A DNA stretch of 64,000 bases from Hydrogenophaga sp. BPS33 (GTDB lineage: Bacteria; Pseudomonadota; Gammaproteobacteria; Burkholderiales; Burkholderiaceae_C). Shown one piece after another: positions 10,910 through 57,150 of this stretch (its first letter is position 1; each line of letters starts with the position of its first letter). The notes under the pieces are model-generated. The model was not told the DNA's origin. It searched no databases and was given only the letters and a program-made list of their open reading frames with translations. The DNA lies in contig NZ_CP044549.1 of the NCBI RefSeq assembly GCF_009859475.1, forward strand, positions 1,674,001 through 1,738,000, in the 5' to 3' direction. The position numbers and the translations under genes are program-made.

Positions 10910-10921
10910 TTGCCCGAGACC

Positions 10922-12082: not shown

Positions 12083-12125
12083 AGAGCCTTTCGATTTCAC
12101 CGTTTTACACAGTAGGAGACACACC

Positions 12126-13109: not shown

Positions 13110-13113
13110 ACCA

Positions 13114-14526: not shown

Positions 14527-14533
14527 GAACGCC

Positions 14534-15694: not shown

Positions 15695-16113
15695 ACATGA
15701 CAACGGACTCCAGCGCCCCGCGCAAGCCTCCCCAACAGGGCACAACCCTGTCCGCCCCATTCTGGGAAGCCGCCCGCGAGGGTCGGCTGGTGATTCAGCG
15801 TTGCTCCGATTGCGGCCAGCTCCGCCACTATCCCCGCCTGTTGTGTAGCCGCTGTTTTTCGGACCGCTGCGACTGGGTGGAGGCATCGGGCGAAGGCACC
15901 GTGCACAGCTGGACCGTGGCGCACCATGCCTTCCATCCAGCCTTTGCCGACGAGCTACCCTACACCTTGGTCACCGTGGATCTCAAGGAAGGTGTGCGCG
16001 CTTTGGGACGCTGGCGAGAAGGGAGCACACCGCGCCTGGGTTTGGCGGTGCGAGGCGGGTTCGAGCCGCGCGAAGACGGCGTGGATCTGGTCTTCCAGGC
16101 CGTTGCCGGGTAA
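15691..16113 (+). CDS. DUF35 zinc-ribbon / OB-fold protein
   Basis: 140 residues, overlapping the thiolase-like gene by ATGA. Four cysteines C38, C41, C52, C55 form the rubredoxin-like zinc ribbon, followed by an OB-fold (GTVHSWTVAHHAFHPAFADEL). DUF35 proteins bind acyl-CoA and act as partners of SCP2-type thiolases or aldolases; in the Ltp2 system the DUF35 domain is required for stability and activity. The tight overlap argues for a stoichiometric complex with the preceding gene product. Confidence 0.92.
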   Translation: MNMTTDSSAPRKPPQQGTTLSAPFWEAAREGRLVIQRCSDCGQLRHYPRLLCSRCFSDRCDWVEASGEGTVHSWTVAHHAFHPAFADELPYTLVTVDLKEGVRALGRWREGSTPRLGLAVRGGFEPREDGVDLVFQAVAG

Positions 16114-16140
16114 GGGCACAAATGCGGAGGCTATACTGAA

Positions 16141-16860
16141 ATGATGAAGACTCCAGCCGCTGCGCCACCTCGAAAAAGAGCTTCCTCAACCAGCCGCACC
16201 GCCTCCCCAGGCAAGGCCCGCGCCGCGGCCCCGGTCGCCAAACGCTCGTTGACACCCGAACCTGAAACCATTCGCGATGCGGTCTCGCGGCTCAAGCGCG
16301 AACGTATCATCTCGGCCGCCACGCAGATGTTCTATTCCAATGGCCTGGGTAACACCACGCTGGAGGCGGTCGGTGAACAGCTCAACGTCACCAAGCCTTT
16401 CATCTATTCCCATTTCAAGTCGAAGAACGACTTGCTGGCCGAAATCTGCTCCCGTGGCATCCGCGCCTGGCTGGACGTTCTGGACCGCGTGGTGTCCTCG
16501 CAAGGCGGGCCGACCCACAAGCTGCGGACACTGGCGCACGAGCTGATGCTTGCCGTGATCGAAAACCAGGCCCACATCGCCATCTACACGCGGGAGGAAA
16601 AACACCTCTCTGAAGACAGCCGGGAAGGCATCAACGCGATGCGTCGCGATTTCGATCGCAAGTTCTGCGCGCTGCTGGATGAAGGCGTGGCTGCTGGCGA
16701 GTTCAGCGTGAGCGATGTGCAGATCACGTCGCTGGCCATTGGCGGCATCCTGAGCTGGTCGTACGTGTGGTACCGCCCGGAGGGCCGGTTGAGCCCCGAG
16801 CAAACCGCCAACACGGTGGCCGATCTGGTGCTGGCCCTGGTGCAAGCCAAAGCCGCGTAA
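16141..16860 (+). CDS. TetR/AcrR-family regulator
   Basis: 239 residues. The first 50 are Ala/Pro/Lys/Arg-rich and probably disordered; residues 50-100 hold the TetR DNA-binding domain (RIISAATQMFYSNGLGNTTLEAVGEQLNVTKPFIYSHFKSKNDLL). The C-terminal ligand-binding domain is all-helical. A GGAG lies upstream of the ATG. It is the last gene of the plus operon, 27 bp after the DUF35 gene, so autoregulation of that operon, likely through an acyl-CoA ligand, is expected. Possible operators are the inverted repeats at 8632-8657 and at 19656-19671. Confidence 0.92.
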   Translation: MMKTPAAAPPRKRASSTSRTASPGKARAAAPVAKRSLTPEPETIRDAVSRLKRERIISAATQMFYSNGLGNTTLEAVGEQLNVTKPFIYSHFKSKNDLLAEICSRGIRAWLDVLDRVVSSQGGPTHKLRTLAHELMLAVIENQAHIAIYTREEKHLSEDSREGINAMRRDFDRKFCALLDEGVAAGEFSVSDVQITSLAIGGILSWSYVWYRPEGRLSPEQTANTVADLVLALVQAKAA

Positions 16861-29432: not shown

Positions 29433-29529
29433 GAGTGCCGTGGCCCGCAGCCGATCGACGCCAGGCACCCGTGTTGGCGCGCCGCGCGCAATAGCATTGA
29501 TCTTTTGCCCCTTTGAAAGACGCATCCAC

Positions 29530-30480
29530 ATGAAAAACACCCTCTCTTTGGCCGAGCAACTGACAGGATTTGTGGGCCGCCAAGGTGCGGCCATGGTGTC
29601 GCCGGACCCGGTCAACCCGGCCATGATTCGCCATTGGTGTGCCGCGTTGGGCGATGAGAATCCGACCTATGCCGAGACCGGCACCGCGCCTGCGGCGATG
29701 CTGCAAGTCTGGACGATGCCGGGCTGGAAGCCCGTCTCGCCGGGCCCGGACGCGGTGGCCGACCTGTATGCCTGTCTGGATGCACGAGGTTACACATCGA
29801 TCGTGGCGACCGACAGTGAGCAAGACTACTTGCGCCCACTGCGACACGGCGAGACTGTCACCGCCACCAAGACGATCGTTTCGATCTCCGACGAGAAAAC
29901 CACCGGATTGGGGCGGGGCTTTTTCATCACCTCGCACATCGACGTCGTCGACGCGCGGGGCGATCTGGTGGGTCGACAGCTGCATCGGGTTTTGAAGTTC
30001 AAACCCCCGCAGACGCCCATTGTCGCGCCGACGACGGCACCGGCAGCCGCACCCGTCGCTGCGCCGCCCGCGCAGCGGCAGCAGCTTCCTCGCTGGTCCA
30101 TCGCGCTGGACCGCAGCACCATCGTGGCCACCGCCATTGCCACGCGCGACTACCAACCTGTTCATCACGACCCGGACCATGCCCGTCGCAGCGGCTCTCA
30201 GGACATCTTCATGAACATCTTGACCACGCAGGGCCTCGTGGCACGGTTTGTCCTGGATTGGGCCGGGGCGGGCGCAGTGCTCAGGCGCACCGCCATCCGG
30301 CTCGGCGCCAGCAACTATCCCGGAGACACCATGGAGATGAGCGGCGAGGTGTTGTCGCGCCACCCTGCGGCGGGCGGCGGGGAAGACGTCGAAGTGGGAG
30401 TGCGCGGACGCAATCGGTTGGGCGACCACGTCAAGGGGGCCGCCGTGGTGACGATCCCACCGGCGAAGGCGGCACCGTGA
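29530..30480 (+). CDS. double-hotdog MaoC-type enoyl-CoA hydratase
   Basis: 316 residues from ATG 29530, although the frame is open from 29440. Residues 1-160 are a MaoC_dehydrat_N-type hotdog (EQLTGFVGRQGAAMVSPDPV ... RPLRHGETV). A Pro/Ala-rich linker (about 160-185) precedes a second MaoC hotdog with ATRDYQPVHHDPDHAR, the hydratase-2 motif with catalytic Asp and His. The first half resembles the N-terminal part of the gene at 49040, and the second half the gene at 51092. It would hydrate an enoyl-CoA. Divergent from the Bug receptor gene. Confidence 0.88.
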   Translation: MKNTLSLAEQLTGFVGRQGAAMVSPDPVNPAMIRHWCAALGDENPTYAETGTAPAAMLQVWTMPGWKPVSPGPDAVADLYACLDARGYTSIVATDSEQDYLRPLRHGETVTATKTIVSISDEKTTGLGRGFFITSHIDVVDARGDLVGRQLHRVLKFKPPQTPIVAPTTAPAAAPVAAPPAQRQQLPRWSIALDRSTIVATAIATRDYQPVHHDPDHARRSGSQDIFMNILTTQGLVARFVLDWAGAGAVLRRTAIRLGASNYPGDTMEMSGEVLSRHPAAGGGEDVEVGVRGRNRLGDHVKGAAVVTIPPAKAAP

Positions 30481-40067: not shown

Positions 40068-41303
40068 CTATGGCCTCGCGCCGGGCGCACTGTCCGCGTG
40101 GCCAATGGCGCCGTGGGATTGCAGTTCGACAATGTCGGAACGGCCGAACCCCAACGATTCCAGGATTTCGGCAGTGTGTTCACCCAGGCGGGGCGGCAGG
40201 CGGTGCACTCCCGTCGGCGAGGCGGGCATGTCGATCGGGTTGCGTGGCACTCGTAGCCGCCCTTCGCTGGGATGCTCGCGCTCCTCCCAAAAGCCGGTCG
40301 CCTGGAGGTGCGGATCGGCGAGCAAATCCTCCAGCGAATTCACGCGCCCGAAAGGAACGTCGGCTGCTGTCAGCAAGGCGATCCACTCGTCGGTGGTCTT
40401 CTTCGCGACTTGCCGGCCCACCTCGTTCCAGAACCCGGTCTGATCGGACTGGCGCGCAGCGTGGTTGCTGTAGCGTGGGTCCGCGGTCAAGGCCGGGTCG
40501 CCAATCGCAGCGCAAAAGCGGATCCACTGGGCATCGTTGTAGGGCAGAACGCAAAGGTAGCCGTCCGCTGTTTTGAACGGGCGCCGGGCCGCCGTGCTGA
40601 CCGGCGGGTAACCCATGCCCGCCAGCGGCGGCACGAAGCTCTCGCCCCATTGGTGCTCGATCATGTTGAAGGCCACCATGGTCTCGAACATCGGCACGTT
40701 GACTTCCTGCCCTTCCCCGGTTCGCTCGCGGTGCACGAGTGCGGTGGCGACCGCGAACGCGGCGTGCAACCCGGTGATCTTGTCGGCGAGGATGGACGGT
40801 ACGTAACGCGGCTCCCCCGACACCACCGACTGCAGGGCCGCCAGGCCCGACGTGGCTTGCGCGACGTCGTCATACGCCGGCTTGCCCGCGTAAGGGCCTT
40901 CGTCAGAGAAGCCCTTCACGTGACAGAGGATGATCGACGGTTGCAGCGCGCGCAGCCGCTCGTAGTCGAGGCCGAGTCGCCGCGCCGCATCGGTGCGGAT
41001 GGAATGGAGAACGACGTCGGATTCGCGCACGAGCCGCTCGAGCACGGCTTGCGCAGCGGGCTGCTTCAAGTCAAGGCAAATGCTGCGCTTGTTTCGGTTG
41101 CTACCCAGAAAGAAGGCCCCCATATCGGCCGATTGGCGCGGGCCGATGCGGCGGGTGAGGTCCCCCTCAAGGGGTTCGATCTTGATAATGTCGGCCCCCA
41201 TGTCGCCTAGCGCCTGGGTGGCCATGGGCCCCACGATCATGGTCGCGAGATCGAGTACGCGGATGCCATCAAGGGCGCCCGTTTTCTTTTCAGAGGTATT
41301 CAT
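40068..41303 (-). CDS. CaiB/BaiF family III CoA-transferase (transferase type)
   Basis: 411 residues. IRVLDLATMIVGPMATQALGDMG, SNRNKRSICLDLK and ILADKITGLHAAFAVATAL (catalytic Asp) are family signatures; PAYDD has Tyr at the racemase His position. A close paralogue of the protein at 9698-10909 with long runs of identity (VPMFETM.AFNM.EHQWG). Lies 21 bp after the flavin reductase gene; would attach CoA to the acid formed by the monooxygenase. Confidence 0.92.
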   Translation of the reverse strand: MNTSEKKTGALDGIRVLDLATMIVGPMATQALGDMGADIIKIEPLEGDLTRRIGPRQSADMGAFFLGSNRNKRSICLDLKQPAAQAVLERLVRESDVVLHSIRTDAARRLGLDYERLRALQPSIILCHVKGFSDEGPYAGKPAYDDVAQATSGLAALQSVVSGEPRYVPSILADKITGLHAAFAVATALVHRERTGEGQEVNVPMFETMVAFNMIEHQWGESFVPPLAGMGYPPVSTAARRPFKTADGYLCVLPYNDAQWIRFCAAIGDPALTADPRYSNHAARQSDQTGFWNEVGRQVAKKTTDEWIALLTAADVPFGRVNSLEDLLADPHLQATGFWEEREHPSEGRLRVPRNPIDMPASPTGVHRLPPRLGEHTAEILESLGFGRSDIVELQSHGAIGHADSAPGARP

Positions 41304-41324
41304 CGGTAGAAAAAGTGGAAGGGT

Positions 41325-41882
41325 TCAGCCCAGACCGGCCCAGATGCCGTCAAGATCAGAAGCCGCGGTACCCGTGCGCAACGTGAGCGCCGTGCAATAG
41401 CGTCCGGCGTTGAAGATCAGTGGTTCGCCGTCCCCATAGGCGAGGCGGTGCACCCGGCCGACGAACAGCAGATGATCGCCGCCGTCGACCGTGCTGTCGA
41501 TGCTGCATTCGAAGCGCGCGATCACGCCTTCCAGCAAGGGCGAAGCGCCCACACCCACGCCGACTTTCAGCCCCGCGAACTTGTCTTCGCTGGGCGTGGC
41601 GAAGCGGTGGGACATCTCGGCCTGGCCCGCGGACAGCACGTTGATCGCAAAGTGCCCCGATGCCAGGAACCCGGCCAGAGAAGGCGAGCGTCGGCTGATG
41701 CTCCACAAGATGAGCGGTGGGTCCAGTGACAGCGCAGAGAACGAGTTGGCGGTAAGCCCTTCGCGCTTGCCGTCGGGCGCCTGCGTGGTAATGACCGTCA
41801 CCCCGGTTGGAAAGCGACCGAGTGCGTTGCGGATCTGCCGCGTATCGTGCGCCTCGTCCAGCGATATCTCTTGCAGCTCCAT
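41325..41882 (-). CDS. flavin reductase-like FMN-binding protein
   Basis: 185 residues. NALGRFPTGVTVITTQ, GLTANSFSALSLDPPLILW and NVLSAGQAEMSHRF are hallmarks of NAD(P)H:flavin reductases that serve two-component monooxygenases. It lies 5 bp downstream of the luciferase-like monooxygenase gene, which is the expected partner using its reduced flavin. Confidence 0.92.
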   Translation of the reverse strand: MELQEISLDEAHDTRQIRNALGRFPTGVTVITTQAPDGKREGLTANSFSALSLDPPLILWSISRRSPSLAGFLASGHFAINVLSAGQAEMSHRFATPSEDKFAGLKVGVGVGASPLLEGVIARFECSIDSTVDGGDHLLFVGRVHRLAYGDGEPLIFNAGRYCTALTLRTGTAASDLDGIWAGLG

Positions 41883-41887
41883 TGCGC

Positions 41888-42982
41888 TCAGGTAGCCAAT
41901 TCGGTCGGTTGGGTGACCGCTGGCATGACCTTCTCTGCCATCAGACGCATGGAGTTGCGGGCCAGCTCGCCGTCCTTCCAGTCAACGCCGGCGTACAGCA
42001 ACGTGCCGAAGTCACCGACCTCATCGCGAAAGGCGTGCAACTGGTCAGCAACACTGGCAGGCGAGCCATGGATCATGAGTTTGCCCATCACCTGCTCAAG
42101 CGTCACGCTGTCGTCGCTCTGTTTCGGATCGGCCTTGAAAACACCGAGTGCACCGCGTCGCTTGAGTTTTCCGAACAGCGAACGGTAGTAGTAGTAGTAA
42201 GGACCGTCGGTGCCCATGGCGTAGCGCGCGGCCGTTGCGTCGTCCTTTGCCACGAACACGGTCTTCGCGATGCGCCAGTTCGCTGGATCGGGCGCGCGAG
42301 CGGCGCGTTCGCATCCTTCGACATACTTCGTCCAGTGGCTCTTGACCCATTGGGGCATCAGGAAGTTGGCCGAGATCGGATCCCAGCCGCGCGCAGCGGC
42401 TTCCGTGATGCCTTGTGAAAAGGGTGCCACGGCGGTGACCACGATGGGTGGATGGGGTCGCTGAAGCGGCTGTGGGATGGTGCCCATGCCGGTCTCCGCT
42501 ATGTACGTGCGCTCTGTCGAAATGTTCCAGTACGTGCCTTTGATGTTGTACGGCGGCGAAGAGCTCCAGATCTTGAGCAAGGTGTTAATGGCTTCGAGAA
42601 ACATTGCCGGACGCGGAAGATCGTGGTTCTCGAACACTTCCGCATCGGAGGGGAGCGCACCGGGGCTGATGCCCAGGATGAAACGACCGCCCAGCAGATG
42701 GTCGAGCATCGCGATGTGGGCAGCGATGGCGGCCGGGTGGTAGTTGGGCATGTTGATGGTGCCAGTGCCCAGCTTGATCTTTTGGGTCGCATCGACCAGC
42801 GTGGCCAGGAACATGGCCGAGGAGGTGATGTTCTCTTCGGGGTCGGTGGCGTGCTCTCCGACATAGCCTTCGGTAAAGCCCAGTTGGTCGGCGAGCACAA
42901 AGGCCTCGCGGTCCTCGCGCAGGGATTGCTGCCAGTCTTTGCCGATGGGGTGCATGGGCATGGTGAAGAAGCCGAGCTTCAT
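41888..42982 (-). CDS. luciferase-like (LLM class) flavin-dependent monooxygenase
   Basis: 364 residues from ATG 42982 with GGAGACAAC before it; the frame upstream is longer but without conserved features. KLGFFTMPMHP, IKLGTGTINMPNYHPAAIA and GRFILGISPGALPSDAEVF are typical for bacterial luciferase and limonene-type monooxygenases. It would use FMNH2 from the adjacent reductase and O2 to oxidise an aldehyde, ketone or terpenoid. First gene of an operon with the reductase, a CoA-transferase and probably LysR. Confidence 0.92.
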   Translation of the reverse strand: MKLGFFTMPMHPIGKDWQQSLREDREAFVLADQLGFTEGYVGEHATDPEENITSSAMFLATLVDATQKIKLGTGTINMPNYHPAAIAAHIAMLDHLLGGRFILGISPGALPSDAEVFENHDLPRPAMFLEAINTLLKIWSSSPPYNIKGTYWNISTERTYIAETGMGTIPQPLQRPHPPIVVTAVAPFSQGITEAAARGWDPISANFLMPQWVKSHWTKYVEGCERAARAPDPANWRIAKTVFVAKDDATAARYAMGTDGPYYYYYRSLFGKLKRRGALGVFKADPKQSDDSVTLEQVMGKLMIHGSPASVADQLHAFRDEVGDFGTLLYAGVDWKDGELARNSMRLMAEKVMPAVTQPTELAT

Positions 42983-43239
42983 GTTGTCTCCTTGTGCGAC
43001 AGGTTGAAACGCATCGAAGCGTGGTGCCGAAAAAGGCGCCAGTCTAGGCCGTCTCATGTCGACAGAATAGACACTTATTTGGATCACGAAGCTTCAGAAT
43101 TTGCGATGGTTTCAGGCTTGACCTGACGCGTGCTCGACGCTTATGGTTGTGCCCGTTTCGCCGCTGATGACACCTGCGACGATTGCCGGCAAAGGCCGCG
43201 CGAACCCGCTTCGACATATCGAAAAGAGAGAGAGACAAG
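42983..43239. promoter_or_regulatory. divergent promoter region between monooxygenase and cupin operons
   Basis: A TGTCGACA palindrome (43057-43064) overlaps TGTC-N9-GACA (43057-43073), which could be part of a LysR-type site. No ORF with protein features. The LysR gene at 39092 is the nearest candidate regulator. Confidence 0.3.
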
Positions 43240-47053: not shown

Positions 47054-47779
47054 CTAGGCCTTGCGTCGCGGCGCGGCTTTCACCGATTTTTTCACCACCA
47101 CGGCGTCTTCGCGGGGTGCATCCACCGGCTTGCGCCAGATGCCGGAGAAGGTCGTGATGGTGGTGCGCAGCAGCGATTGCAACGAACCCTCATCGGCATC
47201 GAACCAACCCACCGTGCGGTTCAATGTGCCAAGGATGAGTGGGCGCAACATGCGCGGTTCGATGCCGGGTTCGAGGCAGTCCCCTTCGACGGCTTCCTGG
47301 ATCAAGCTCCGCCAGAAATCGCTGTAGCGCTCGCGCATGGGCTGAATGACGGCGTAAACCTCGGCCGGCAGTTTGATACGAGACTGCGCGTTCGTCGACG
47401 TGAAGGGCTTGTTCGAGTGCAATGCGGTGAGGTGTCCTTCAATGGCGGCCTCGATGCGCATGCGAGGTGACGCATTCTCGGGCAGGTTGCTCAGCTGGGC
47501 ATTCACCGAATCGAAAATGACATCGACCGCCATCCGGATGATTTCTTCATAGAGCCGGTCCTTGGACGCGAAGTAGTAGTAAACCGTCGACGACCTGATG
47601 CCCGCCATCGTCGCGATTTCACGGAGGCCGGACTCGGCGAAGCCCTTCGTCGAGAACAGAATGGCGGCCTCGCGGAGAATGATTTCACGGGCGTTGGCCG
47701 GCCTGTCGGGATCCGCAGGTTCCAACGTCGTGGCGTGTGCTGCCGTTGCCCGCTTGGGCTTGGTCACTGTGTTTTCCAT
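47054..47779 (-). CDS. TetR/AcrR-family regulator
   Basis: 241 residues. A short disordered N-terminus, then the TetR HTH (ILREAAILFSTKGFAESGLREIATMAGIRSSTVYYYFASKDRLYEEI), a helical ligand domain, and a basic tail (KKSVKAAPRRKA). It lies 24 bp downstream of the racemase gene on the same strand, so both are likely co-transcribed. A palindromic site at 49013-49034 in their common promoter is a good candidate operator for this protein. Confidence 0.93.
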   Translation of the reverse strand: MENTVTKPKRATAAHATTLEPADPDRPANAREIILREAAILFSTKGFAESGLREIATMAGIRSSTVYYYFASKDRLYEEIIRMAVDVIFDSVNAQLSNLPENASPRMRIEAAIEGHLTALHSNKPFTSTNAQSRIKLPAEVYAVIQPMRERYSDFWRSLIQEAVEGDCLEPGIEPRMLRPLILGTLNRTVGWFDADEGSLQSLLRTTITTFSGIWRKPVDAPREDAVVVKKSVKAAPRRKA

Positions 47780-47803
47780 CGCACCATTGTCATGGAAGTC
47801 GAC

Positions 47804-48964
47804 TCAGGCCACGACGCCCCGTTCGTGCCATTGCTGGATTTGTGCTGGATCGAAACCCTGCTCCTGCAAGATCTCGTGCGTGTGCTGTCCGGGTGTGGGC
47901 GGTGGACGCTTGATCGATGGCGTGCTCCGGCTGAAACGCGGGGCGGGCGCGGGCTGCAGCACGCCGTGCGCTTCGACAAGCACTCCCCGCGCCTGGATGT
48001 GAGCGTGTGATGAAGCCTCGTGCGCAGCCAGCACCGGCGCAACGCAGGCATCGCTGTGTCCCAACGCCTGCATCCATTGGTCCCGCGTCCGCTGGCGAAA
48101 CGCGGCTGCGAGCCGGGCGCGCAAAATCGGCCAGACGGCAGGGTCGTCCCGGTCGCGAAGTGCGGTGTCGTTGCCAAGCCCGGTCTGCTCCAGCAGCTCC
48201 TGGTAGAAGCGGTTCTCGATCGCGCCGACCGAAACGAAGAGACCGTCGCTCGTTTCATAGACCCCATACCAGGGCCGACTGCCGTCGAGAAGGTTGCCCC
48301 CACGGTGTGGTGCCCAGTCGCCCGTGGCCAACCGCCCGAACACACTGGTCAACAAGTGCACGGTTCCGTCGACGATGGCTCCGTCGACCACCTGGCCCTG
48401 GCCGCTGGTGCGCGCCTCGAGCAGGGCGCAGAGGATGCCGAACGCAAGGTACAGCGCACCGCCCCCGAAATCCCCGACAAGGTTCAGTGGCGGAACGGGG
48501 GGGCCGTTGGCGTTGCCGATGGCGTCGAGCGCACCGGTCAGCGCGATGTAGTTGATGTCATGTCCCGCCGTCTGCGCGAGCGGGCCGTCCTGGCCCCAAC
48601 CCGTCATGCGCCCATACACCAGCAGCGGATTCACGGCGTGGCACTCCGCTGGGCCCAGGCCGAGGCGTTCCGTCACGCCCGGTCGAAAACCTTCGACCAG
48701 GACGTCGGATTGCGCCACCAGCTTTTTCACCAACGCCACGCCTTCGGATGTCTTCAGGTCGATGGCAATCGAGCGGCGGCCCCGGTTGAGCAACTGCGAC
48801 GCGGGATCCGAAGCGACGCCGATGTCGGCGGGTCCGGTTCGATCCACCCGCAGCACCTCTGCCCCCATGTCCGCCAACAGCATGCAGCAGAACGGGGAGG
48901 GACCAATCCCCGCCAACTCGATCACCTTGACGCCGGCCAGTGGGCCGCTCGATTTCTCATGCAT
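47804..48964 (-). CDS. alpha-methylacyl-CoA racemase-like protein (family III)
   Basis: 386 residues. VKVIELAGIGPSPFCCMLLAD start; GHDINY supplies H135 and LVGDFGGG supplies D165, the 30-residue spaced catalytic pair of alpha-methylacyl-CoA racemases. Very similar to the protein at 19721. Epimerises 2-methyl-branched acyl-CoAs so that they can enter stereospecific beta-oxidation, fitting the divergent igr-like operon. Confidence 0.9.
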   Translation of the reverse strand: MHEKSSGPLAGVKVIELAGIGPSPFCCMLLADMGAEVLRVDRTGPADIGVASDPASQLLNRGRRSIAIDLKTSEGVALVKKLVAQSDVLVEGFRPGVTERLGLGPAECHAVNPLLVYGRMTGWGQDGPLAQTAGHDINYIALTGALDAIGNANGPPVPPLNLVGDFGGGALYLAFGILCALLEARTSGQGQVVDGAIVDGTVHLLTSVFGRLATGDWAPHRGGNLLDGSRPWYGVYETSDGLFVSVGAIENRFYQELLEQTGLGNDTALRDRDDPAVWPILRARLAAAFRQRTRDQWMQALGHSDACVAPVLAAHEASSHAHIQARGVLVEAHGVLQPAPAPRFSRSTPSIKRPPPTPGQHTHEILQEQGFDPAQIQQWHERGVVA

Positions 48965-49012
48965 ATCTGCCTTTCTCGCTTGCGTTGCAAAAATCCGTGA
49001 GGTACATTATGC

Positions 49013-49034
49013 CTATCGAACGATCGTTAGATAG
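49013..49034. promoter_or_regulatory. 22-bp near-perfect palindrome, candidate TetR operator
   Basis: The core is AACGATCGTT, flanked symmetrically by CTATC on the left and GATAG on the right with one unmatched base in each half. It lies between the racemase-TetR operon and the igr-like operon, ending six bases before the ATG at 49040, so a bound repressor would block both directions. The form is typical of TetR operators. Confidence 0.7.
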
Positions 49035-49039
49035 ATTTG

Positions 49040-49990
49040 ATGTCCACCAACCACACACCTACCCCGTCTTTAACCGCCGAACTTCAGGCTTATGTCGGAC
49101 GGCGAGGCGCCCCCGTTTATGCGTGGGACCGCGTGAACGAAGCGATGGTCCGCCAATGGTGCGAGGTGTTTGATGTCGACTTCCCGCCGTTCCTGGACAG
49201 GCAGGCTGGCGCGCGAAGCGGCCACGGTGGGTTGATCGCGCCCGCCACCATGCTGCCGGTGTGGCTCATGCCAGGGCTGCGCAACCGACGTCCGGAAGGC
49301 TCCGATACCGCAGACCCCCGAGACATCATGAAAGTCCTCGAGCGGGAAGGCTTTGTCGGCATTCTGGGCACCAATACCGAACAGGAATACGAGCGCCCCT
49401 TGCGACCGGGCGAGCTCATTTCCTGTGTGCACTCCGTCGAAGCGGTCAGCGATGAGAAGCAGACGCGCATGGGCTCCGGGCGGTTTGTCACATTCCTTCA
49501 GGAGTTCTTCGACGAGGACAACAAGCCCGTGGGCGTGATGCGCCTGCGCATACTTCGGTTCAGGCCGCTCGTGGTGCCACCTGCTCGCCCGTCGCCTCCG
49601 CAACCCGCGATCAATCAGGACACCGCTTTCTTTTGGCAAGGCCTGAAATCCGGGCAGTTGCTGATCCAGCGGTGCACGTCTTGCGGCGTGTTGCGACACC
49701 CGCCCGGTCCGGCCTGTACCGAATGCCATGGCCTTGACTGGGACACGGTCACGTCGAGCGGCCGGGGCAAACTGTTCTCGTTCGTGGTGATTCACCAGCC
49801 CAAGCACCCCGCTTTTGACTACCCATTGCCCGTTGGCCTGATCGAGCTGGAAGAGGGCACGCGCCTTGTCGCGCCCATCCAATGCACCGACGCTTCGTCG
49901 CTGCGAACCGGGATGCCCATGGCAGTCTTCATCGAATCGGTGGATGGCGAAGACCGGTTGCCCTGGTTCCGACCCGTGAGCGAGGTCTGA
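49040..49990 (+). CDS. MaoC-hotdog / DUF35 fusion protein (ChsH2-like)
   Basis: 316 residues from ATG 49040; a TTG directly before it is less likely. Residues 1-165 are a MaoC_dehydrat_N-type hotdog (RPLRPGELISCVHSVEAVSDE). A proline-rich linker follows, then a DUF35 domain with zinc-ribbon Cys at 212, 215, 226 and 229 and an OB-fold. This order equals mycobacterial ChsH2, whose hotdog half pairs with ChsH1 as hydratase and whose DUF35 half pairs with Ltp2 as aldolase. Partners of both kinds are encoded downstream in the same operon. Confidence 0.88.
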   Translation: MSTNHTPTPSLTAELQAYVGRRGAPVYAWDRVNEAMVRQWCEVFDVDFPPFLDRQAGARSGHGGLIAPATMLPVWLMPGLRNRRPEGSDTADPRDIMKVLEREGFVGILGTNTEQEYERPLRPGELISCVHSVEAVSDEKQTRMGSGRFVTFLQEFFDEDNKPVGVMRLRILRFRPLVVPPARPSPPQPAINQDTAFFWQGLKSGQLLIQRCTSCGVLRHPPGPACTECHGLDWDTVTSSGRGKLFSFVVIHQPKHPAFDYPLPVGLIELEEGTRLVAPIQCTDASSLRTGMPMAVFIESVDGEDRLPWFRPVSEV

Positions 49991-49992
49991 AC

Positions 49993-51099
49993 ATGAACTT
50001 TGAACTCACTGGCGATCAGACCGCCGTTGTCGACCTGGCGACCTCGCTGTTTCGCGAGCATGGCTCCGATGACCACATACGCGCGCTCCACGAGAAGGAC
50101 GCGTCCATCGACCGCCCGTTGTGGCGCAAGCTGTCGGAGACCGGGCTGCTGTCGATTGCTTTGCCGGAGGCGGCTGGTGGGGCGGGCATGGGCATGCTCG
50201 AACTGGGTTTGGTGCTCCAGCAGCAGGGGCGCTTTCTCGCGGCAGTGCCCTTGTGGACGCATGCGCTGGCAACACTGGCAGTCGGGACGCATGGTGTGCC
50301 CGCTCTGCGCGAAAGTGTTCTGGCCACGTTGCTGTCAGGCGAGCGACCTGCCGCCATCGCGACGGAGCTGGATGCACGCGCGGGCCTGACCGCCACCCCG
50401 TCGCAGCAGGGTTGGCTGCTGGACGGCGAACTGCCCAGCACGCTGCTGGAGCCATGGCATGGGTTCCTGCTGGCGCTCGCAACGACCCCACAGGGAAGAC
50501 GGCTTTTTCTGCTGGACCTGCAACACGTCGCGCCCGAGCGCACGAGCGGTCGCCTCACCGATCTGCAGACGGTGTGCACGCTGAATTTTTCTCGGGTCTT
50601 CGTTGCACAGGACTGCGTGCTGGACGCGCCGGCGTTGGACTGGCTGTGGCCGCGAATGGCGTGCTGTGTTTCGGCGCTGCAACTGGGCGTTCTGGAGGAG
50701 GCCTTGAGCCGCGCCGCTGCCTACGTCAGCGAGCGGCATCAGTTCGGACGCCCATTGGGTAGCTTCCAGGCTCTGGCGGTCCGCGCGGCCGATGCGTACA
50801 TCCAGGTCGAACTTCTGCGTTCGGCGCAACTGCAGCTGGCATGGCGGATCGATCAAGGTTTGCCGTGCGAAGCCGCTGCCCGGGTCGCGAAGCACCAAGC
50901 CAGTCAAGCGGGCCACATCGTCGGACATACCGCCCAGCACTTCCACGGCGGGGTCGGGGCCGACCTGCAGTACCCGATTCATCGCTTTTATCTCAAGAGC
51001 CAGGCGCAGTCGCTGATTGCTGGTGGCGCCGAGGCCCAGCTGGCGCACATCGGGCGTGCCCTGGCCGACACCGACATTGCGGAGTACATCCATGAGTAA
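49993..51099 (+). CDS. acyl-CoA dehydrogenase-like protein, catalytic Glu position changed
   Basis: 368 residues from ATG 49993, two bases after the previous stop. N-terminal and middle domains are acyl-CoA dehydrogenase-like (MNFELTGDQTAVVDLATSLF) but the middle domain lacks the usual TEP.GGSD motif. The C-terminal segment GGVGADLQYPIHRFY has Q326 where many family members have the catalytic Glu (WEHP). In the heteromeric ChsE1-ChsE2 enzyme only one chain carries the active-site base, so this chain may be the non-catalytic partner of the dehydrogenase at 52709. Confidence 0.88.
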   Translation: MNFELTGDQTAVVDLATSLFREHGSDDHIRALHEKDASIDRPLWRKLSETGLLSIALPEAAGGAGMGMLELGLVLQQQGRFLAAVPLWTHALATLAVGTHGVPALRESVLATLLSGERPAAIATELDARAGLTATPSQQGWLLDGELPSTLLEPWHGFLLALATTPQGRRLFLLDLQHVAPERTSGRLTDLQTVCTLNFSRVFVAQDCVLDAPALDWLWPRMACCVSALQLGVLEEALSRAAAYVSERHQFGRPLGSFQALAVRAADAYIQVELLRSAQLQLAWRIDQGLPCEAAARVAKHQASQAGHIVGHTAQHFHGGVGADLQYPIHRFYLKSQAQSLIAGGAEAQLAHIGRALADTDIAEYIHE

Positions 51100-51523
51100 G
51101 CGATCCATGCGCGTCGCCGACGCGCGTGTGGGCCAACAGCTGCCTCCACTGAACATTCCGGTGACCGTCACATCGGTCGCGGCCGCGGCCATCGCCACCC
51201 GTGATTACCAACCCGTACATCACGACATCGAGCGCGCCCGCGCGCTGGGCAGTGAGACGGTCTTCACCAGCACGCATACCGCCACCGGCTATCTGGAGTG
51301 GCTGGTGTTGGCATGGGCAGGGCCGGGGGCGTTTTTGCGCAGTCTGAAACTGCGGCTGGGCGTTCCCAACTACGCAGGCGACACGCTGCACCTGCAGGGG
51401 CAGGTGACCGCGGTGGACATCGCTCTTGGTCGGGTGCATGTCGAGGCCATCGGGTCCAATTCGCGTGGCCAGCACGTGACGGCTGAACTGGTCGTCCAAC
51501 TGAAGGGAGATGGCGGTGAATGA
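51092..51523 (+). CDS. MaoC-type enoyl-CoA hydratase (ChsH1-like)
   Basis: 143 residues from ATG 51092, overlapping the dehydrogenase stop by 8 bp. Single hotdog with IATRDYQPVHHDIERARALG, containing the hydratase Asp and His. Size and place match ChsH1, the catalytic partner of the ChsH2 hotdog. Highly similar to the second half of the fused protein at 29530 (ATRDYQPVHHD, WAGPGAFLRSLKLRLG). Confidence 0.92.
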   Translation: MSKRSMRVADARVGQQLPPLNIPVTVTSVAAAAIATRDYQPVHHDIERARALGSETVFTSTHTATGYLEWLVLAWAGPGAFLRSLKLRLGVPNYAGDTLHLQGQVTAVDIALGRVHVEAIGSNSRGQHVTAELVVQLKGDGGE

Positions 51524-52700
51524 CGTCTTTGGCGGCAAGGTCGCGCTGGCCGGAATCGGTGCAACGGAGTTCTCGAAAAACTCGGGCCGCACCGAAATGC
51601 GGCTCGCTGTTGAAGCGTGTCTCGCCGCATTGGAAGACGCGGGGATCGAACCCGCAGAAGTGGACGGCATGTGCACGTTCACCATGGATCACAACCCCGA
51701 GATGGATGTGCACCGCCTCATTGGCGGAAAGGAGATGACCTTCTTCTCGCGCATCGACTACGGCGGTGGAGGCGCTTGTGCCCCCGTCATGCAAGCCGCC
51801 ATGGCGATTGCCAGTGGCGCCGCCCATGTGGTGGTGTGCTACCGCGCCATGAACGAGCGCTCGTGGTACCGGTTTGGCGCTGGAACGCCGTTGGCCAATG
51901 CGCCATCCACGCCCACCTTCATCGCGGCGAACCACTACGCCTGGTACTTGCCCGCCGCGTTGAGCACACCGGCCTCCTTCGTCGGCATGGCCGCGCGCGT
52001 GTACATGGAGAAGTACGGTGTGACGAGCGAAGACTTTGGCAGGGTTTCGGTTGCAGCCAGGGCGTTTGCAGCCACCAACCCGAATGCGTTTTTCCACGGA
52101 CAGCCGATCACCTTGGCCGATCACCAGGCGTCGCGCTTCGTGGCCGAGCCCCTTCATCTGCTGGACTGCTGCCAGGAAAGCGACGGCGCGGTCGCGATCG
52201 TCATCACCTCGCTGGAGCGCGCGCGCAAGCTGCGCCACAAGCCGGCGGTTGTGCGGGCCGCTGCGCAGGCCAGCGCGCAAGGCCAGCATCGGCTCACCAG
52301 CTTCTACCGCGAAGATATCGCCCACCTTCCCGAAATGGGCATGATCGCAAGGCAACTCTATGCCCAGAGCGGTTTGGGGCCACGCGACTTCCAGACGGCC
52401 ATCCTGTATGACCATTTCACCCCCTATGTGCTGGAGCAATTGGAAGAGTTTGGCTTTTGCGCACGCGGCGAAGCCAAGGATTTTGTGCGATCGAACGAAC
52501 ACGCCCGTGGTGGCACGCTGCCCATCAACCCCAATGGCGGACAACTCGGTGAGGCGTACATCCATGGCATGAACGGCATTGCCGAGGCCGTGCGCCAGAT
52601 CCGCGGCACCGCCGTCAACCAGCTTGCCGGTGTCGAGCACATCCTGGTGACGGCGGGCTCGGGCGTGCCCACCAGCGGCATCATCCTCGGGCAGGATTGA
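51510..52700 (+). CDS. SCP2-type thiolase-like protein, Cys nucleophile missing (Ltp2-like)
   Basis: 396 residues, start overlapping the hydratase gene by 14 bp. Thiolase fold (VALAGIGATEFSKNSGR, ILYDHFTPYVLEQLEEFGF). At the nucleophile site the sequence is DYGGGGACAPV: aligning by the following helix, Gly replaces the Cys (a Cys lies four residues later). The C-terminal catalytic His of NxHGG is Asn (NPNGG). This fits Ltp2, which cleaves a tertiary-alcohol side chain by retro-aldol reaction together with the DUF35 domain encoded three genes upstream, not thiolysis. Confidence 0.9.
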   Translation: MAVNDVFGGKVALAGIGATEFSKNSGRTEMRLAVEACLAALEDAGIEPAEVDGMCTFTMDHNPEMDVHRLIGGKEMTFFSRIDYGGGGACAPVMQAAMAIASGAAHVVVCYRAMNERSWYRFGAGTPLANAPSTPTFIAANHYAWYLPAALSTPASFVGMAARVYMEKYGVTSEDFGRVSVAARAFAATNPNAFFHGQPITLADHQASRFVAEPLHLLDCCQESDGAVAIVITSLERARKLRHKPAVVRAAAQASAQGQHRLTSFYREDIAHLPEMGMIARQLYAQSGLGPRDFQTAILYDHFTPYVLEQLEEFGFCARGEAKDFVRSNEHARGGTLPINPNGGQLGEAYIHGMNGIAEAVRQIRGTAVNQLAGVEHILVTAGSGVPTSGIILGQD

Positions 52701-52708
52701 GGACCCCT

Positions 52709-53878
52709 ATGCGATTTCAATTCACCGAAGACCAAAGGGCCTTGCGCGAGGACATCAGGGCGTACTTCGGCGCCCTCATCACGCCGGCGCTCAAGGAGGA
52801 TCTGCGTGTTCATGCGGCCACACCGGTCTACAAGGAAGTCATCCGCCAGGTGGGGCGCGACGGGTATCTGGCCGTGGGATGGCCCGAGGAATACGGGGGG
52901 CGAGGGTATGGCCCCATCGAGCAACTGATCTTCGTGCAGGAAGCGTTGCGGGCCGGTGCGCCCATTCCCTTCGTGACCCTGAGCACCCTGGGCCCTACCT
53001 TGATGGTCCACGGGTCGGCCGCGCAGAAGGCGCGGCTGCTGCCCGGCATTGCGTCGGGGGAGCTGCATTTCGCCATCGGATACACCGAGCCGGGTTCGGG
53101 AACGGATCTGGCAAGTCTCAAAACGCGTGCGGTGGTGTCTGACGACGGCTTTCGCGTGAGCGGCAGCAAGATCTACACGAGCCATGCCGAGGGTGCCGAT
53201 CTGATATGGCTGGCAGCGCGTACCGACCCCGAGTCGAAAGCGCACAAAGGGATTTCCATTCTGCTCGTCGACACCAAGTCCAAGGGGTTTTCAATGACCC
53301 CGATGGAGACCGTGGCAGACATGCATACCAACGTCACTTACTACGACGACGTGTTCGTTCCAAACGACATGCTGGTGGGCGAACTGCACGGCGGCTGGAA
53401 ACTCATCACCTCGCAACTGAACTACGAGCGCATCGGCATTGCGGCGCGTGGCATCCATGGCGAACAGCTTTTCCGCCGCACGCTGGAATGGGCGCGCACG
53501 GGCCACACCGGTCAGCGTGCGATCGATGACCCCTGCGTGCAGCGTCTTCTCGCCAGCGTGTATGCGCGGCTGGAAACCCTTCGCATCATGAATTTGCGCC
53601 TGGCCTGGAGCCTGCAAGGCGCACAACCGGATCCGGCCTATGCCTGTGCCGCGAAGGTGCATGGTGTCGAGAGCCTGGTCGAGACTTGCCGCGACTTGCT
53701 GCAAGTTCTCGGACTCGGCGGACTCGTGCGCCACGGGAGTGAGGCGGCGTTGATTGCCGGCGATGTCGAGGCGCAATACCGGCGATGCCAGATCAACACC
53801 TACGGTGGTGGGAGTGGCGAGGTCATGCGCGAAATGGTCGCCACCCGGGGGCTGCACATGCCCCGAACCTCGCGATAA
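52709..53878 (+). CDS. acyl-CoA dehydrogenase
   Basis: 389 residues; ATG 52709 has GAGG 6 bases upstream, better than TTG 52697. MRFQFTEDQRALREDIRAYF, AIGYTEPGSGTDLASLKTRA and the C-terminal NTYGGGSGEVMREMVATRGL are typical. It follows the Ltp2-like gene and may form a heteromer with the gene product at 49993, as FadE28/FadE29 (ChsE) do in the cholesterol pathway. Eight bases after the thiolase stop. Confidence 0.92.
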   Translation: MRFQFTEDQRALREDIRAYFGALITPALKEDLRVHAATPVYKEVIRQVGRDGYLAVGWPEEYGGRGYGPIEQLIFVQEALRAGAPIPFVTLSTLGPTLMVHGSAAQKARLLPGIASGELHFAIGYTEPGSGTDLASLKTRAVVSDDGFRVSGSKIYTSHAEGADLIWLAARTDPESKAHKGISILLVDTKSKGFSMTPMETVADMHTNVTYYDDVFVPNDMLVGELHGGWKLITSQLNYERIGIAARGIHGEQLFRRTLEWARTGHTGQRAIDDPCVQRLLASVYARLETLRIMNLRLAWSLQGAQPDPAYACAAKVHGVESLVETCRDLLQVLGLGGLVRHGSEAALIAGDVEAQYRRCQINTYGGGSGEVMREMVATRGLHMPRTSR

Positions 53879-53892: not shown

Positions 53893-55128
53893 ATGAACGC
53901 TCAAGATGCCTTGTTCTCGCAGCTTCGCGTGGTGGAAGTCGGGAGCTTTGTCGCGGGGCCTGCCGCGGCCACGATTCTGGGTGATCTGGGCGCCGAGGTC
54001 CTGAAGATTGAGCAGCCCGGGCAGGGGGATCTGTGGCGCCATCAGTACCGTCGACCGGAGCTTCCGCAGGCATCCACCAACTACCTCTGGCTGTTGACAG
54101 GGCGTGGCAAGCAAAGCGTTGCCATCGATCTGAAGACGGCAGAGGGGCGCCAACTGCTTCACCGCATTTGCACGCAAGCCGACGTCTTCATCACGAACCT
54201 GCCTGTTCCTGCGCGCACGGGGCTGGGTGTGGACTATCAAACGCTTGCAGCGCTGAACGCCCGGTTGGTCTATGCCTCTTTCACAGGGTACGGTGAACAA
54301 GGAGACGAGAAGGACGAAGCCGGTTTCGACACGACCGGATGGTGGGCCCGATCGGGGCTGATGGACCAGTCGCGTTCGGACCCCGAAGCGCCACCTGCCA
54401 AGGCCCCGGCCGCTTCTGGGGACCATCTCTCTGCGTTGTCGATTTTCGGTGCGATTGTCAGCGCGCTGTATCGGCGCGAACGGACGGGCCTGGGCGGGTA
54501 CGTCGGATCCTCGTTGTTGGCCAACGGCGCCTGGCAGAACGCTGTGTACATCCAGGCGGCGCTGGCCGGCGCGGAGTTCCGCCCTATCCGCAAACGATCG
54601 GAAAACTGGAACCCGCTGAACATTCACTACCTCTGCAGTGACGACCGCTGGTTCATGATCACCATCAATCCCGCGCACCAGGCCCTGCATTGGAGCGCGT
54701 TCGCCGCGGTCGTGGAGTGTCCGGACTTGCTGACCGATTCGCGCTTCAACACGTACGACGCAAGGCTCAAGCACAGTGTCGAACTTATTCGACGGTTGGA
54801 CGATGCGTTTGTGCGGCGCACCGCCGACGACTGGAAGCAGCGGTTCAAGGGCACCGGCATCGTGACCAGTGTCGTGGCACGTGCACAAGATGCACCGAAC
54901 GATGAGCAGATGAAAGCGAACGGAATCCTCGTCGACCTTGAGGGCGTGCCAGGCGTGCCAACGACGGTCGCCAGCCCCTTCTTCATCCATGGCGAAAACA
55001 AACGCGTGGCGACCCGGGCACCCGACGTGGGCGAACACACCACCGCCGTGCTCAAGCAGCTTGGCCTCAGCGCAGAAGACATCACCCGTCTGCAAGACGC
55101 TGGCATCGTGCAATCGCGAGACAGATGA
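53893..55128 (+). CDS. CaiB/BaiF family III CoA-transferase
   Basis: 411 residues from ATG 53893; the frame upstream overlaps the dehydrogenase gene. LRVVEVGSFVAGPAAATILGDLG and GRGKQSVAIDLKTAEG are family motifs; the catalytic Asp lies in ASGDHLSALSIFGAIVSALY and the racemase His position is Phe (AGFDTTGWWARSG), so transferase chemistry is expected. 15 bp after the dehydrogenase gene, same operon. Could move CoA between the incoming acid and a downstream acid. Confidence 0.9.
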   Translation: MNAQDALFSQLRVVEVGSFVAGPAAATILGDLGAEVLKIEQPGQGDLWRHQYRRPELPQASTNYLWLLTGRGKQSVAIDLKTAEGRQLLHRICTQADVFITNLPVPARTGLGVDYQTLAALNARLVYASFTGYGEQGDEKDEAGFDTTGWWARSGLMDQSRSDPEAPPAKAPAASGDHLSALSIFGAIVSALYRRERTGLGGYVGSSLLANGAWQNAVYIQAALAGAEFRPIRKRSENWNPLNIHYLCSDDRWFMITINPAHQALHWSAFAAVVECPDLLTDSRFNTYDARLKHSVELIRRLDDAFVRRTADDWKQRFKGTGIVTSVVARAQDAPNDEQMKANGILVDLEGVPGVPTTVASPFFIHGENKRVATRAPDVGEHTTAVLKQLGLSAEDITRLQDAGIVQSRDR

Positions 55129-55163
55129 AGCTTTTTTTGCAGCCCCAAGACCAGGAGACACCC

Positions 55164-56141
55164 ATGACAAAAAATGCCTTTCGCCGCCGGGCGATTGCGA
55201 GCCTGTTGCTCGCGACCCTATTGACCCAGACGCCAACATGGGCGGAGGAATTCCCGTCACGCCCGTTGCGGATTGTGGTGGGCTTCGCGCCCGGCGTCGG
55301 TATGGAAGTCAGCACCCGGCTGCTTGCCGAGCAGATGGGCAAGGAGCTTGGTCAGCCCGTAATCGTGGAGAACAAGCCGGGTGCTGCCACGATGATCGCG
55401 GCAGCGCAGGTTGCTGCCGCCGCGAAGGACGGCTACACACTGTTGATGCTGAACAACCAGACCGCGAACAACGTCCTGCTCTACAAAAAAGTGCCTTACA
55501 AGAACAGCGACTTCACGCCAGTGGCCGGTGGCGGCGTCGTGTCGATGGTCATGGCCGTGTCGAAGACGGTGCCCGTGACGACGGGCCGAGAGTTTCTCAA
55601 GTACGCAAAAGACAACGACGGAAAACTGTTCTATGGCTACTGGGGTGCCGGCGGGAGCCCGCACTTGCTGGCCGCACGGCTGGCCTCGTCCACCGGGCTC
55701 ACGCTTCAGGGCGTGGGCTACAAGGATGCAGGCCCTGCGACGGCAGATCTGGCATCCGGACGGATTCAACTCTTCTTTACCTCGGTGACCCACGGCCTGT
55801 CCATGCTGAAAGCAGGTACCGCGAACATCGTGGCGGTCGGCACGCCCGAGCGTTTGCCCAGCATGCCCAACGTCCCCACTTTCTCCGAGTCCGGTATCGA
55901 CGGAATGCCCAACCCATGGTGGGGCTATGGCGTGCCGGTTGGCACGCCCCCCGCCGTCATTCAGAAGCTTGAGCAGGCCATAAAGGCGGCGGTAGAGTCG
56001 CCCCGCTATCAGGCGATGTTGGCGAGCACTGGGTCGATCCCAATGCCCGTGAGCAGCCCGGCCAAGTTCCAGGAGTTCATCGAAAAGGACCAGGAAAAAT
56101 GGGCCGCCGCGATTCGCCCGCTCAAACTGGAACTCGACTGA
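55164..56141 (+). CDS. Bug/TctC-type periplasmic substrate-binding protein
   Basis: 325 residues; ATG 55164 has CAGGAGACACCC before it, better than the in-frame ATG at 55125 that overlaps the CoA-transferase stop. Sec signal peptide (AFRRRAIASLLLATLL, cleavage near TWA-EEF). LRIVVGFAPGVGMEVSTRLLA and VIVENKPGAATMIAAAQVA are family motifs. Followed by a second Bug gene 38 bp downstream. Confidence 0.92.
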   Translation: MTKNAFRRRAIASLLLATLLTQTPTWAEEFPSRPLRIVVGFAPGVGMEVSTRLLAEQMGKELGQPVIVENKPGAATMIAAAQVAAAAKDGYTLLMLNNQTANNVLLYKKVPYKNSDFTPVAGGGVVSMVMAVSKTVPVTTGREFLKYAKDNDGKLFYGYWGAGGSPHLLAARLASSTGLTLQGVGYKDAGPATADLASGRIQLFFTSVTHGLSMLKAGTANIVAVGTPERLPSMPNVPTFSESGIDGMPNPWWGYGVPVGTPPAVIQKLEQAIKAAVESPRYQAMLASTGSIPMPVSSPAKFQEFIEKDQEKWAAAIRPLKLELD

Positions 56142-56178
56142 TACGACCGGCATGCAGCACAACATAAGGAGACCACAT

Positions 56179-57150
56179 ATGAAACGCAGATCCTTGCTGG
56201 AGTTCCATCTTGCCCTGCTGGCCGCAGGCATCACACCGGTCGTCTCGGGGGCGCAGACCTGGCCCACTCAGCCCATACGTCTGGTGTCCCCTTCGCCTCC
56301 TGGCGGCGCGGCCGATGTCGCGACGCGATTGATCGCCAAGCACCTGGCGGAGCTCCTGGGACAGGCGGTGTTGGTCGACAACCGACCCGGTGGCAATGGC
56401 GTGGTAGCGGGGCTTGAGGCGCTGCGCGGGGGCAAGGACGGGTATTCGATCTTCATGGGCAGCACGACAACCTTGGTGGCCAATCCCTACCTGATGAAGC
56501 AAGTGCCCTTCGAGCCGGCGACCGACCTCGATCCCATCGCATTGGTCGCTTCTTTGCCCTTTGTTCTGGTGGTCAGTCCGTCGTTGCCCATTGCATCGGT
56601 GAAAGAACTGATTGCGTATGCAAAGGAACGACCGGGGAAGGTGACATTCGCCAGCGCTAACGCGACGAGTTTTGTGGCCGCGTCGACCTTCAATCAAAGG
56701 GCCGGGATCGAGATGCTCAACGTTCCCTACAAGGGCGCTCCCGCATCGCTGACCGATATGGTCGGCGGACGGGTCGACATCTCCTTTGTCGATTTTTCGT
56801 CGGCGCGCACATTCATCGAGTCCAAACGGCTGCGTTTGTTGGCGGTGACATCGGCGAAGCGGTCTCCTCTGATGCCGCAAACGCCCACCATCGCAGAGTC
56901 GGGGCTTGCCGGTTACGACGTCGTGGGTTGGACGGCGATGTGCGCCCCTGCCGGTGTAGATCCCGCCATCGTCCAGCGGCTGAACCGGGAGATGCAGAAA
57001 ATTCTGTCTCGCAAGGACGTTCAGGAGCAACTTGCTGCGCTCGGGCAAGACGTTATCTTGGGCACGCCCGACGAATTTGCGTCGTTCATGCGCACCGAGC
57101 GTCCCCGGTGGGGCCGGATGATTCGAAATGCCGGCATTTCAGCCGAATGA
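56179..57150 (+). CDS. Bug/TctC-type periplasmic substrate-binding protein
   Basis: 323 residues; ATG 56179 has AAGGAGACC upstream; the longer frame begins at 56152. Signal peptide around residues 1-27 (RRSLLEFHLALLAAGITPVV, cleavage SGA-QTW). IRLVSPSPPGGAADVATRLIA, VLVDNRPGGNGVVAGLEAL and FASANATSFVAASTF fit the Bug family. The pair of adjacent receptor genes suggests two ligands or a duplication. Confidence 0.92.
   Translation: MKRRSLLEFHLALLAAGITPVVSGAQTWPTQPIRLVSPSPPGGAADVATRLIAKHLAELLGQAVLVDNRPGGNGVVAGLEALRGGKDGYSIFMGSTTTLVANPYLMKQVPFEPATDLDPIALVASLPFVLVVSPSLPIASVKELIAYAKERPGKVTFASANATSFVAASTFNQRAGIEMLNVPYKGAPASLTDMVGGRVDISFVDFSSARTFIESKRLRLLAVTSAKRSPLMPQTPTIAESGLAGYDVVGWTAMCAPAGVDPAIVQRLNREMQKILSRKDVQEQLAALGQDVILGTPDEFASFMRTERPRWGRMIRNAGISAE

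Follow-up and report, generated by a model that had tools for sequence, protein, structure and literature searches.

The locus described here lies at positions 47,054 to 53,878 of a 64,000-nucleotide stretch of the Hydrogenophaga sp. BPS33 genome (contig NZ_CP044549.1, positions 1,674,001 to 1,738,000), which we refer to as the window. Five genes run on the plus strand: a ChsH2-like protein comprising a non-catalytic MaoC domain, a Zn ribbon and a DUF35/OB part (49040..49990; assigned from Pfam and PDB relatives), a ChsE1-like acyl-CoA dehydrogenase subunit (49993..51099), a ChsH1-like catalytic MaoC hydratase subunit (51092..51523), an Ltp2-like retro-aldolase of the SCP2-thiolase fold (51510..52700) and a ChsE2-like acyl-CoA dehydrogenase, probably the catalytic subunit (52709..53878). 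All five igr-type components (ChsE1E2-ChsH1H2-Ltp2) are therefore co-located and co-directional, and the genes make up a complete ChsH2-ChsE1-ChsH1-Ltp2-ChsE2 set, related to the enzymes that remove the terminal three carbons of steroid side chains. On the minus strand lie a gene for an alpha-methylacyl-CoA racemase of the AMACR/MCR type (47804..48964) and, downstream of it, a TetR-family regulator with TetR_N and TetR_C_24 Pfam domains (47054..47779). An earlier, database-free reading of this DNA (the original prediction) had described a five-gene set divergent from a racemase-TetR pair, and each of the seven genes is found on the strand it gave. It had also put the junctions at 2-14 bp; the close packing holds, but the true values within the five-gene set are +2, -8, -14 and +8 bp, two of the four being overlaps. 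The operon probably extends past 53878, since a type III CoA-transferase of the CaiB/BaiF family, possibly serving substrate activation (53893..55128, plus strand; Pfam PF02515, 305 bits), starts 14 bp past the ChsE2-like gene and is followed at -4 and +10 bp by two TctC solute-binding proteins identified by Pfam (55125..56141 and 56152..57150, both plus strand).

Comparison with the PDB gives ChsH1-ChsH2, Ltp2-ChsH2(DUF35) and the Tcur3481/3483 dehydrogenase, the last presumably a steroid enzyme, as the best solved relatives of the set. The ChsE1-like protein matches 6wy8_A (Tcur3481) at 211 bits and 4x28_D at 167, the next match being at 74; the ChsE2-like protein reaches 365 bits with 6wy8_B (Tcur3483) and 364 with 4x28_A, against 145 for the next other protein; and the ChsH1-like protein scores 99-100 bits with 4wnb_B/4w78_B, against 29 for the next. 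The ChsH1-like protein retains an Asp/His pair (D38-x4-H43), and the MaoC domain of the ChsH2-like protein, the C-terminal end of which is DUF35, lacks the catalytic Asp/His dyad; a ChsH1 with the dyad and a ChsH2 MaoC domain without it is the rule given in an excerpt of PMC11321319. The Ltp2-like protein scores 635 bits with NCBIfam PRK07855 (cut-off 469) and 520 bits with 6ok1_A (next 152). Its active site reads Y300-D-H302-F plus Y350, and both Tyr columns are invariant in 137 of 137 rows, three paralogues from the host's own genome excluded; catalytic roles of the Ltp2-type Tyr residues are described in an excerpt of PMC12329534. The label of a "Cys-less" SCP2 thiolase, given previously, does not hold literally: the protein has seven cysteines, and what characterises it is the Ltp2 active site, YDHF and Y350, instead. 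Placement of the proteins in unrelated thiolase or hydratase clades had been named as the contrary outcome; each of them groups with its igr counterpart.

By its relatives, the product of 47804..48964 is closer to MCR/AMACR than to the type III CoA-transferases: its best solved matches are MCR racemases (384-389 bits) and FAR (353 bits), CoA-transferases reaching 151 bits at most. It carries the motifs GHD, GDF and GAIE, which we take to hold the catalytic His, Asp and Glu. Within the 75 bp that separate the divergent genes lies a 20-bp palindrome, TATCGAACGATCGTTAGATA (49014..49033), of which 18 of 20 positions are self-complementary and which ends 6 bp ahead of the ChsH2-like ATG; shuffling the window 100 times gave a mean of 0.00 such sites. 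No second copy with three mismatches or fewer was found in the 6.77-Mb genome, and hence no regulon, nor was a sigma-70-like promoter or terminator-like site found in 48850-49150. The set had been claimed to be driven from a palindromic TetR-type site. The palindrome is indeed in the divergent gap; that the TetR protein binds it, and that the operon is TetR-controlled via this candidate operator, is what we infer.

Related loci were collected as the best 80 by similarity to the Ltp2-like protein. The same five genes occur in the same order at 40 of them, 39 in Proteobacteria-titled records and one (L058) from Acidimicrobiales, and the first four are present at 15 more. According to an excerpt of PMC12502768, Comamonas testosteroni ORF40-44 (ORF, open reading frame) mutants show igr-type chemistry on bile acids, with ORF40/42 as the hydratase, ORF41/44 as the dehydrogenase and ORF43 as the aldolase, which requires DUF35. 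Because of the 40 loci and these mutants, the non-actinobacterial cassette and its order are already established. A "first igr outside Actinobacteria" was accordingly rejected (order in 40 of 80 loci; Comamonas mutants in the excerpt of PMC12502768), and the novelty that the original prediction saw in the cassette's occurrence there falls away: such cassettes are common outside Actinobacteria and the order is the usual proteobacterial one. It had further proposed the same chemistry on an alpha-methyl-branched acyl-CoA in a betaproteobacterium; the parts for dehydrogenation, hydration and retro-aldol cleavage are in place, and it is the novelty that does not survive.

The window proteins belong elsewhere in the family. 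Trees were quick ones, with support from the Shimodaira-Hasegawa-like approximate likelihood ratio test (SH-aLRT) only. The Ltp2 tree of 140 rows held the 80 loci, 55 of 120 listed database proteins, three paralogues from the host, one further same-family genome (G094) and the window, whose protein was nested in sets of 3, 7, 25, 43 and 48 rows with SH-aLRT values of 99, 95, 96, 100 and 98; none of the 80 loci falls within these sets. Likewise, in the ChsH2 tree, whose 142 rows comprise 69 from genomes, 72 of 120 listed proteins and the window, the ChsH2-like protein sits in a 56-row set (99) with 0 of the 69 genome rows inside. Both proteins thus form part of a separate clade of mostly unnamed, apparently metagenomic proteins, to which none of the 80 loci belongs. 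Clade members are found on, among others, long contigs of 64,220, 136,175 and 356,311 bases. The nearest named relative among the matches listed is from Variovorax sp. J31P207 (89%, Ltp2-like); no ChsH2-like entry on a contig sized like that of this strain (P0122/P0241) is among the 120 listed. At E 1e-150 such a protein is found in 1 of 67 same-genus genomes, the window's own, and the family, order and genus samples (399, 399 and 67 genomes) contain no clade member but the window; in the family and order samples no ChsH2-like match exceeds 48% apart from the window itself. Plasmid protein searches returned no close relative, the best being 39.7% (ChsH2-like) and 64.7% (Ltp2-like). The window ChsH2-like protein averages 41% identity to 37 ChsH2 rows from genomes positive for the steroid-ring marker KshA, while the proteobacterial ones in that set average 38% to its two Rhodococcus proteins and 52% among themselves; for Ltp2 (42 KshA-positive rows) the corresponding values are 65%, 64% and 72%. 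Given within-group means of 52% and 72%, the window lies outside the usual proteobacterial spread.

Members of this clade also apparently share contigs with a racemase. We compared 120 listed racemase homologues with the listed ChsH2- and Ltp2-like proteins (120 each) and found 15 of the 120 on contigs of exactly the same size as one carrying a ChsH2- or Ltp2-like protein; jittering the sizes over all 120 gave a mean of 1.8 matches and a largest value of 9 in 5000 trials. On contigs of at least 5 kb the size matches number 12 of 62, all to clade members and including racemase ranks 1, 2, 5, 9, 11, 12, 14 and 15, while three matches on contigs below 3 kb (2703, 2052 and 1405) are probably chance. 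Among the 80 related loci, 59 of which extend over 5 kb to either side, a racemase of at least 250 bits is found in the flanks of just one (L067, Niveispirillum); L075 has two weaker matches. The Niveispirillum locus (L067:9560-17589) contains a stand-alone DUF35 gene, an Ltp2-like gene (63%) and, about 5 kb further, the racemase (51-53%), in a genome where KshA scores just 22 bits and IpdA has no match. On a plasmid of Rhodococcus rhodochrous GD02 (L142:5109-10188), MaoC-N, MaoC-C, DUF35 and Ltp2-like parts are separate genes, accompanied by two CaiB-family genes, one of which is a 50% match to the window racemase.

The host genome, 99.86% complete, lacks a convincing KshA, HsaA or IpdA. Twelve same-family genomes with an ordinary ChsH2-type gene (that of G131 being cut short) served as positive controls, eight further family genomes matched by the DUF35 part alone being left out. 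KshA reaches 22.9 bits in the host versus 189-207 bits in 11 of the 12 carriers. For HsaA/TesA2 the host has no match at 1e-20 versus 653-995 bits in 11 of 12, and for IpdA its best match is 135.5 bits (33%) versus 517-709 bits in 11 of 12, the values of 995 and 709 being self-matches because G142 supplied both queries, which were named by place in the G142 steroid cluster and Pfam rather than by curated label. The KshA and HsaA misses are one genome, G094, which has IpdA at 548 bits and is perhaps an anaerobic-type steroid degrader; the IpdA miss is G131, 87% complete, with KshA and HsaA. A locus of G094 (L126, G094:C245) carries ChsH2-ChsH1-Ltp2-like genes near a KstD-like gene. Of the genomes behind 50 hand-picked members of the 80 loci, KshA is present in 42 with an E of 1e-34 or better, and 45 give any match at 0.001. 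Among the remaining eight, IpdA scores 266-531 bits in five and just 50 bits in G810, and goes unmatched in G809 and G834; four further KshA-positive genomes score 234-478 bits, so that the lowest clear IpdA is at 234 bits (Rhodococcus, G833). The 12- and 50-genome sets overlap, since G131, G142 and G355, judging by shared KshA places, seem to be the source genomes of L016, L022 and L037. No ring-degradation genes had been visible to the original prediction, and the genome-wide search for KshA, HsaA and IpdA, finding none that convinces, extends that observation.

With ring markers not convincingly found and a racemase accompanying the set, some other branched ring-bearing substrate is probable. 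We consider it reasonably likely that this is a TetR-controlled catabolic operon for stripping a non-steroid, ring-bearing acid of its propionate-derived (2-methyl) side chain. In the proposed sequence of events, the acid would first become a CoA thioester, a step that the CoA-transferase at 53893 may catalyse, and the racemase would interconvert the alpha-methyl epimers, letting the one that fits enter the pathway. The ChsE1-ChsE2-like dehydrogenase would produce the alpha,beta-enoyl-CoA. The ChsH1/ChsH2-like hydratase would hydrate this, placing the hydroxyl on the beta carbon, and the resulting tertiary alcohol cannot go on to a beta-keto acid by oxidation. The Ltp2-like aldolase, anchored on the DUF35 domain of its ChsH2-like partner, would then split this alcohol into a ketone and propionyl-CoA. 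Retro-aldol cleavage would be called for wherever the added hydroxyl group ends up on a fully substituted beta carbon, as it does when the acid is carried on a ring. We infer the assembly of the complexes, the sequence of reactions, the connection of TetR to its operator and the nature of the substrate. On chemical grounds, dehydrogenase, hydratase, aldolase and racemase would together suit a non-aromatic ring carrying an alpha-methyl acid, which an alicyclic terpenoid would yield from a side chain of isopropyl origin; an alicyclic terpenoid-type 2-substituted propionate is our favoured guess. A bolder proposal, which we put forward tentatively and at somewhat less than even chances, is that a racemase-linked igr branch is specialised in removing side chains of the 2-substituted propionate type from alicyclic terpenoids (a p-menthane-type 2-cyclohexylpropionate, for instance, would yield a cyclohexanone and propionyl-CoA); the presence of igr genes would then not by itself indicate steroid use. 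The original prediction's view that the substrate may be a new one is strengthened by the lack of convincing ring markers, the clade apart and the link to a racemase.

Several observations weigh against a non-steroid substrate. No gene in the set identifies the substrate, and divergence alone is no proof of a new one, the proteobacterial and Rhodococcus ChsH2 of KshA-positive genomes sharing 38% identity against 41% for the window protein and that set. The columns separating the clade from the KshA-positive set number just five in Ltp2 and four in ChsH2, two of the five (88 and 342) lying near catalytic stretches as judged in sequence alone. The modelled single ChsH2-like chain is predicted to adopt a fold very near that of the steroid enzyme. 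Racemase linkage is read from equal contig sizes and not from neighbourhoods. In the host, the KshA match counts as over the family cut-off together with its frame neighbours (24.3 vs 23.3 bits), and a distant IpdA/IpdB-like pair is present at C1:5.66 Mb (33% and 29%). KstD-like dehydrogenases reach 373 bits there; because below-cut-off matches occur in all 13 genomes searched, controls included, KstD does not discriminate. Around the distant pair (L136, G000:C1:5650000-5669999) there are an enoyl-CoA hydratase, an acyl-CoA dehydrogenase-like match and, by eye, CoA-transferase-like ORFs.

The most serious of the other explanations, though an unlikely one, is partial steroid transformation, in which the C22 side chain would be cut from steroid carboxylates made by others, the propionyl-CoA used and a 17-ketosteroid left. 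For all five proteins the closest solved structures are ChsE/ChsH/Ltp2-type enzymes, the ChsH2 fold appears retained in the model and KstD-like proteins are present. However, a 99.86% complete genome without convincing KshA, HsaA or IpdA argues against it, as do a cassette in its own clade and a racemase of at least 250 bits at just one of the 80 other cassette loci. Racemases of the AMACR/MCR family act on 2-methyl-branched acyl-CoA, and open-chain methyl-branched acids of the pristanoyl or citronellyl type would accordingly engage racemase and dehydrogenases as in branched-chain beta-oxidation, the aldolase releasing the expected propionyl-CoA together with an aldehyde. We regard this as rather improbable: an acid without a beta branch should be served by the ordinary dehydrogenase-thiolase route with no need of an aldolase, and the dyad-less ChsH2 MaoC domain is described, in the excerpt of PMC11321319, as adapted to bulky steroid rings.

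Degradation of 2-arylpropionates such as ibuprofen has a precedent on a plasmid and is nonetheless very unlikely for the window. In a plasmid search by tblastn, pIBU218 from Rhizorhabdus wittichii MPO218, which degrades ibuprofen, proved to encode an Ltp2-type protein with 58.3% identity to the window's, so that the Ltp2-type family is probably not confined to steroids. Its gene lies between IS6100 copies with a DUF35 gene ahead of it, and the protein has the same active-site residues (YDHF and GEAYIHG). An excerpt of PMC9195938 places ipfD in an IS6100-flanked region and credits the ipfDE enzyme with propionyl-CoA release from ibuprofen; from its position between the IS6100 copies, the pIBU218 pair is probably ipfD/ipfE. 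In L067 and L142, too, an Ltp2-like gene has a racemase in its vicinity. Against this, cleavage on the ibuprofen route is preceded by a ring dioxygenase (same excerpt of PMC9195938), and an aromatic beta carbon would not be a likely target for an acyl-CoA dehydrogenase pair and hydratase. In a 65-row tree the pIBU218 protein groups with L067 (99), outside the window clade, and the CaiB-family gene near it is just 31% identical to the window racemase. By title and abstract start, and within the terms and library searched, no paper was found on an igr-type five-gene cassette acting on a non-steroid substrate, the nearest being PMC9195938.

A second module on the plus strand of the window (9698-16860) comprises a type III CoA-transferase, an acyl-CoA dehydrogenase, TctC, a flavin-containing monooxygenase (FMO)-like protein (13003-14526), an SCP2-thiolase (14534-15694) with a separate DUF35 gene (15691-16113) and TetR. 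On the minus strand (40068-43087), a CoA-transferase, a flavin reductase and a luciferase-like monooxygenase stand in a row as a candidate two-component oxygenase, and the first half of a double-hotdog MaoC protein (29440-30480, plus strand) is 38% identical to the ChsH2-like protein. Near the left end lies a HipA-like C-terminal domain with a helix-turn-helix domain (6557-8419, plus strand). ORFs resembling site-specific (serine-type) recombinases, recognised by eye from their N-termini, flank the catabolic stretch at about 1.665 and 1.756 Mb of G000:C1 (L127:10695-12461 and L128:17856-19400), and the stretch may be a genomic island. Genome-wide, the Ltp2-like query has 25 matches in the host, and zf-ChsH2 domains number 15.

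Igr-type genes can be taken as a sign of steroid or cholesterol use, which a conserved branch of the kind proposed would make unsafe. Steroid and non-steroid machines would then be built on one scaffold, and the retro-aldolase set, small enough to express and assay, could serve in making or degrading other ring-bearing molecules.

Among known systems, the pIBU218 pair shares with the window set the Ltp2-type active site and the DUF35 partner, and propionyl-CoA is the product reported for ipfDE (excerpt of PMC9195938); the ibuprofen pair acts after a ring dioxygenase (same source), and no ChsE1/E2- or ChsH1/H2-type genes are annotated in the pIBU218 stretch examined, unlike in the window. The Sal-Shy system of C. 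testosteroni has the same logic of aldolase, DUF35 and MaoC hydratase. Sal has YDCY, with Gln at the second Tyr (excerpt of PMC12329534), whereas the window protein has YDHF and Tyr350 and is of the Ltp2 type; membership in the Sal/Shy C5 side-chain aldolases was rejected on YDHF rather than YDCY. C. testosteroni TA441 ORF40-44 are the same five proteins in the same order, going by ORF numbers and assignments in the excerpt of PMC12502768. That cassette sits in a 120-kb steroid cluster (same excerpt), whereas the window host has no convincing ring markers. The window set also differs in its divergent racemase and TetR and in its protein clade, as judged from trees that include other Comamonas and not TA441 itself. 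Compared with the M. tuberculosis igr operon, the gene order differs (igr order as given by the original prediction), a racemase is linked and there is no steroid context; yet the igr proteins of M. tuberculosis, together with Ltp2-ChsH2(DUF35) and Tcur3481/3483 of Thermomonospora curvata, are the best structural matches, and the window proteins keep their catalytic residues.

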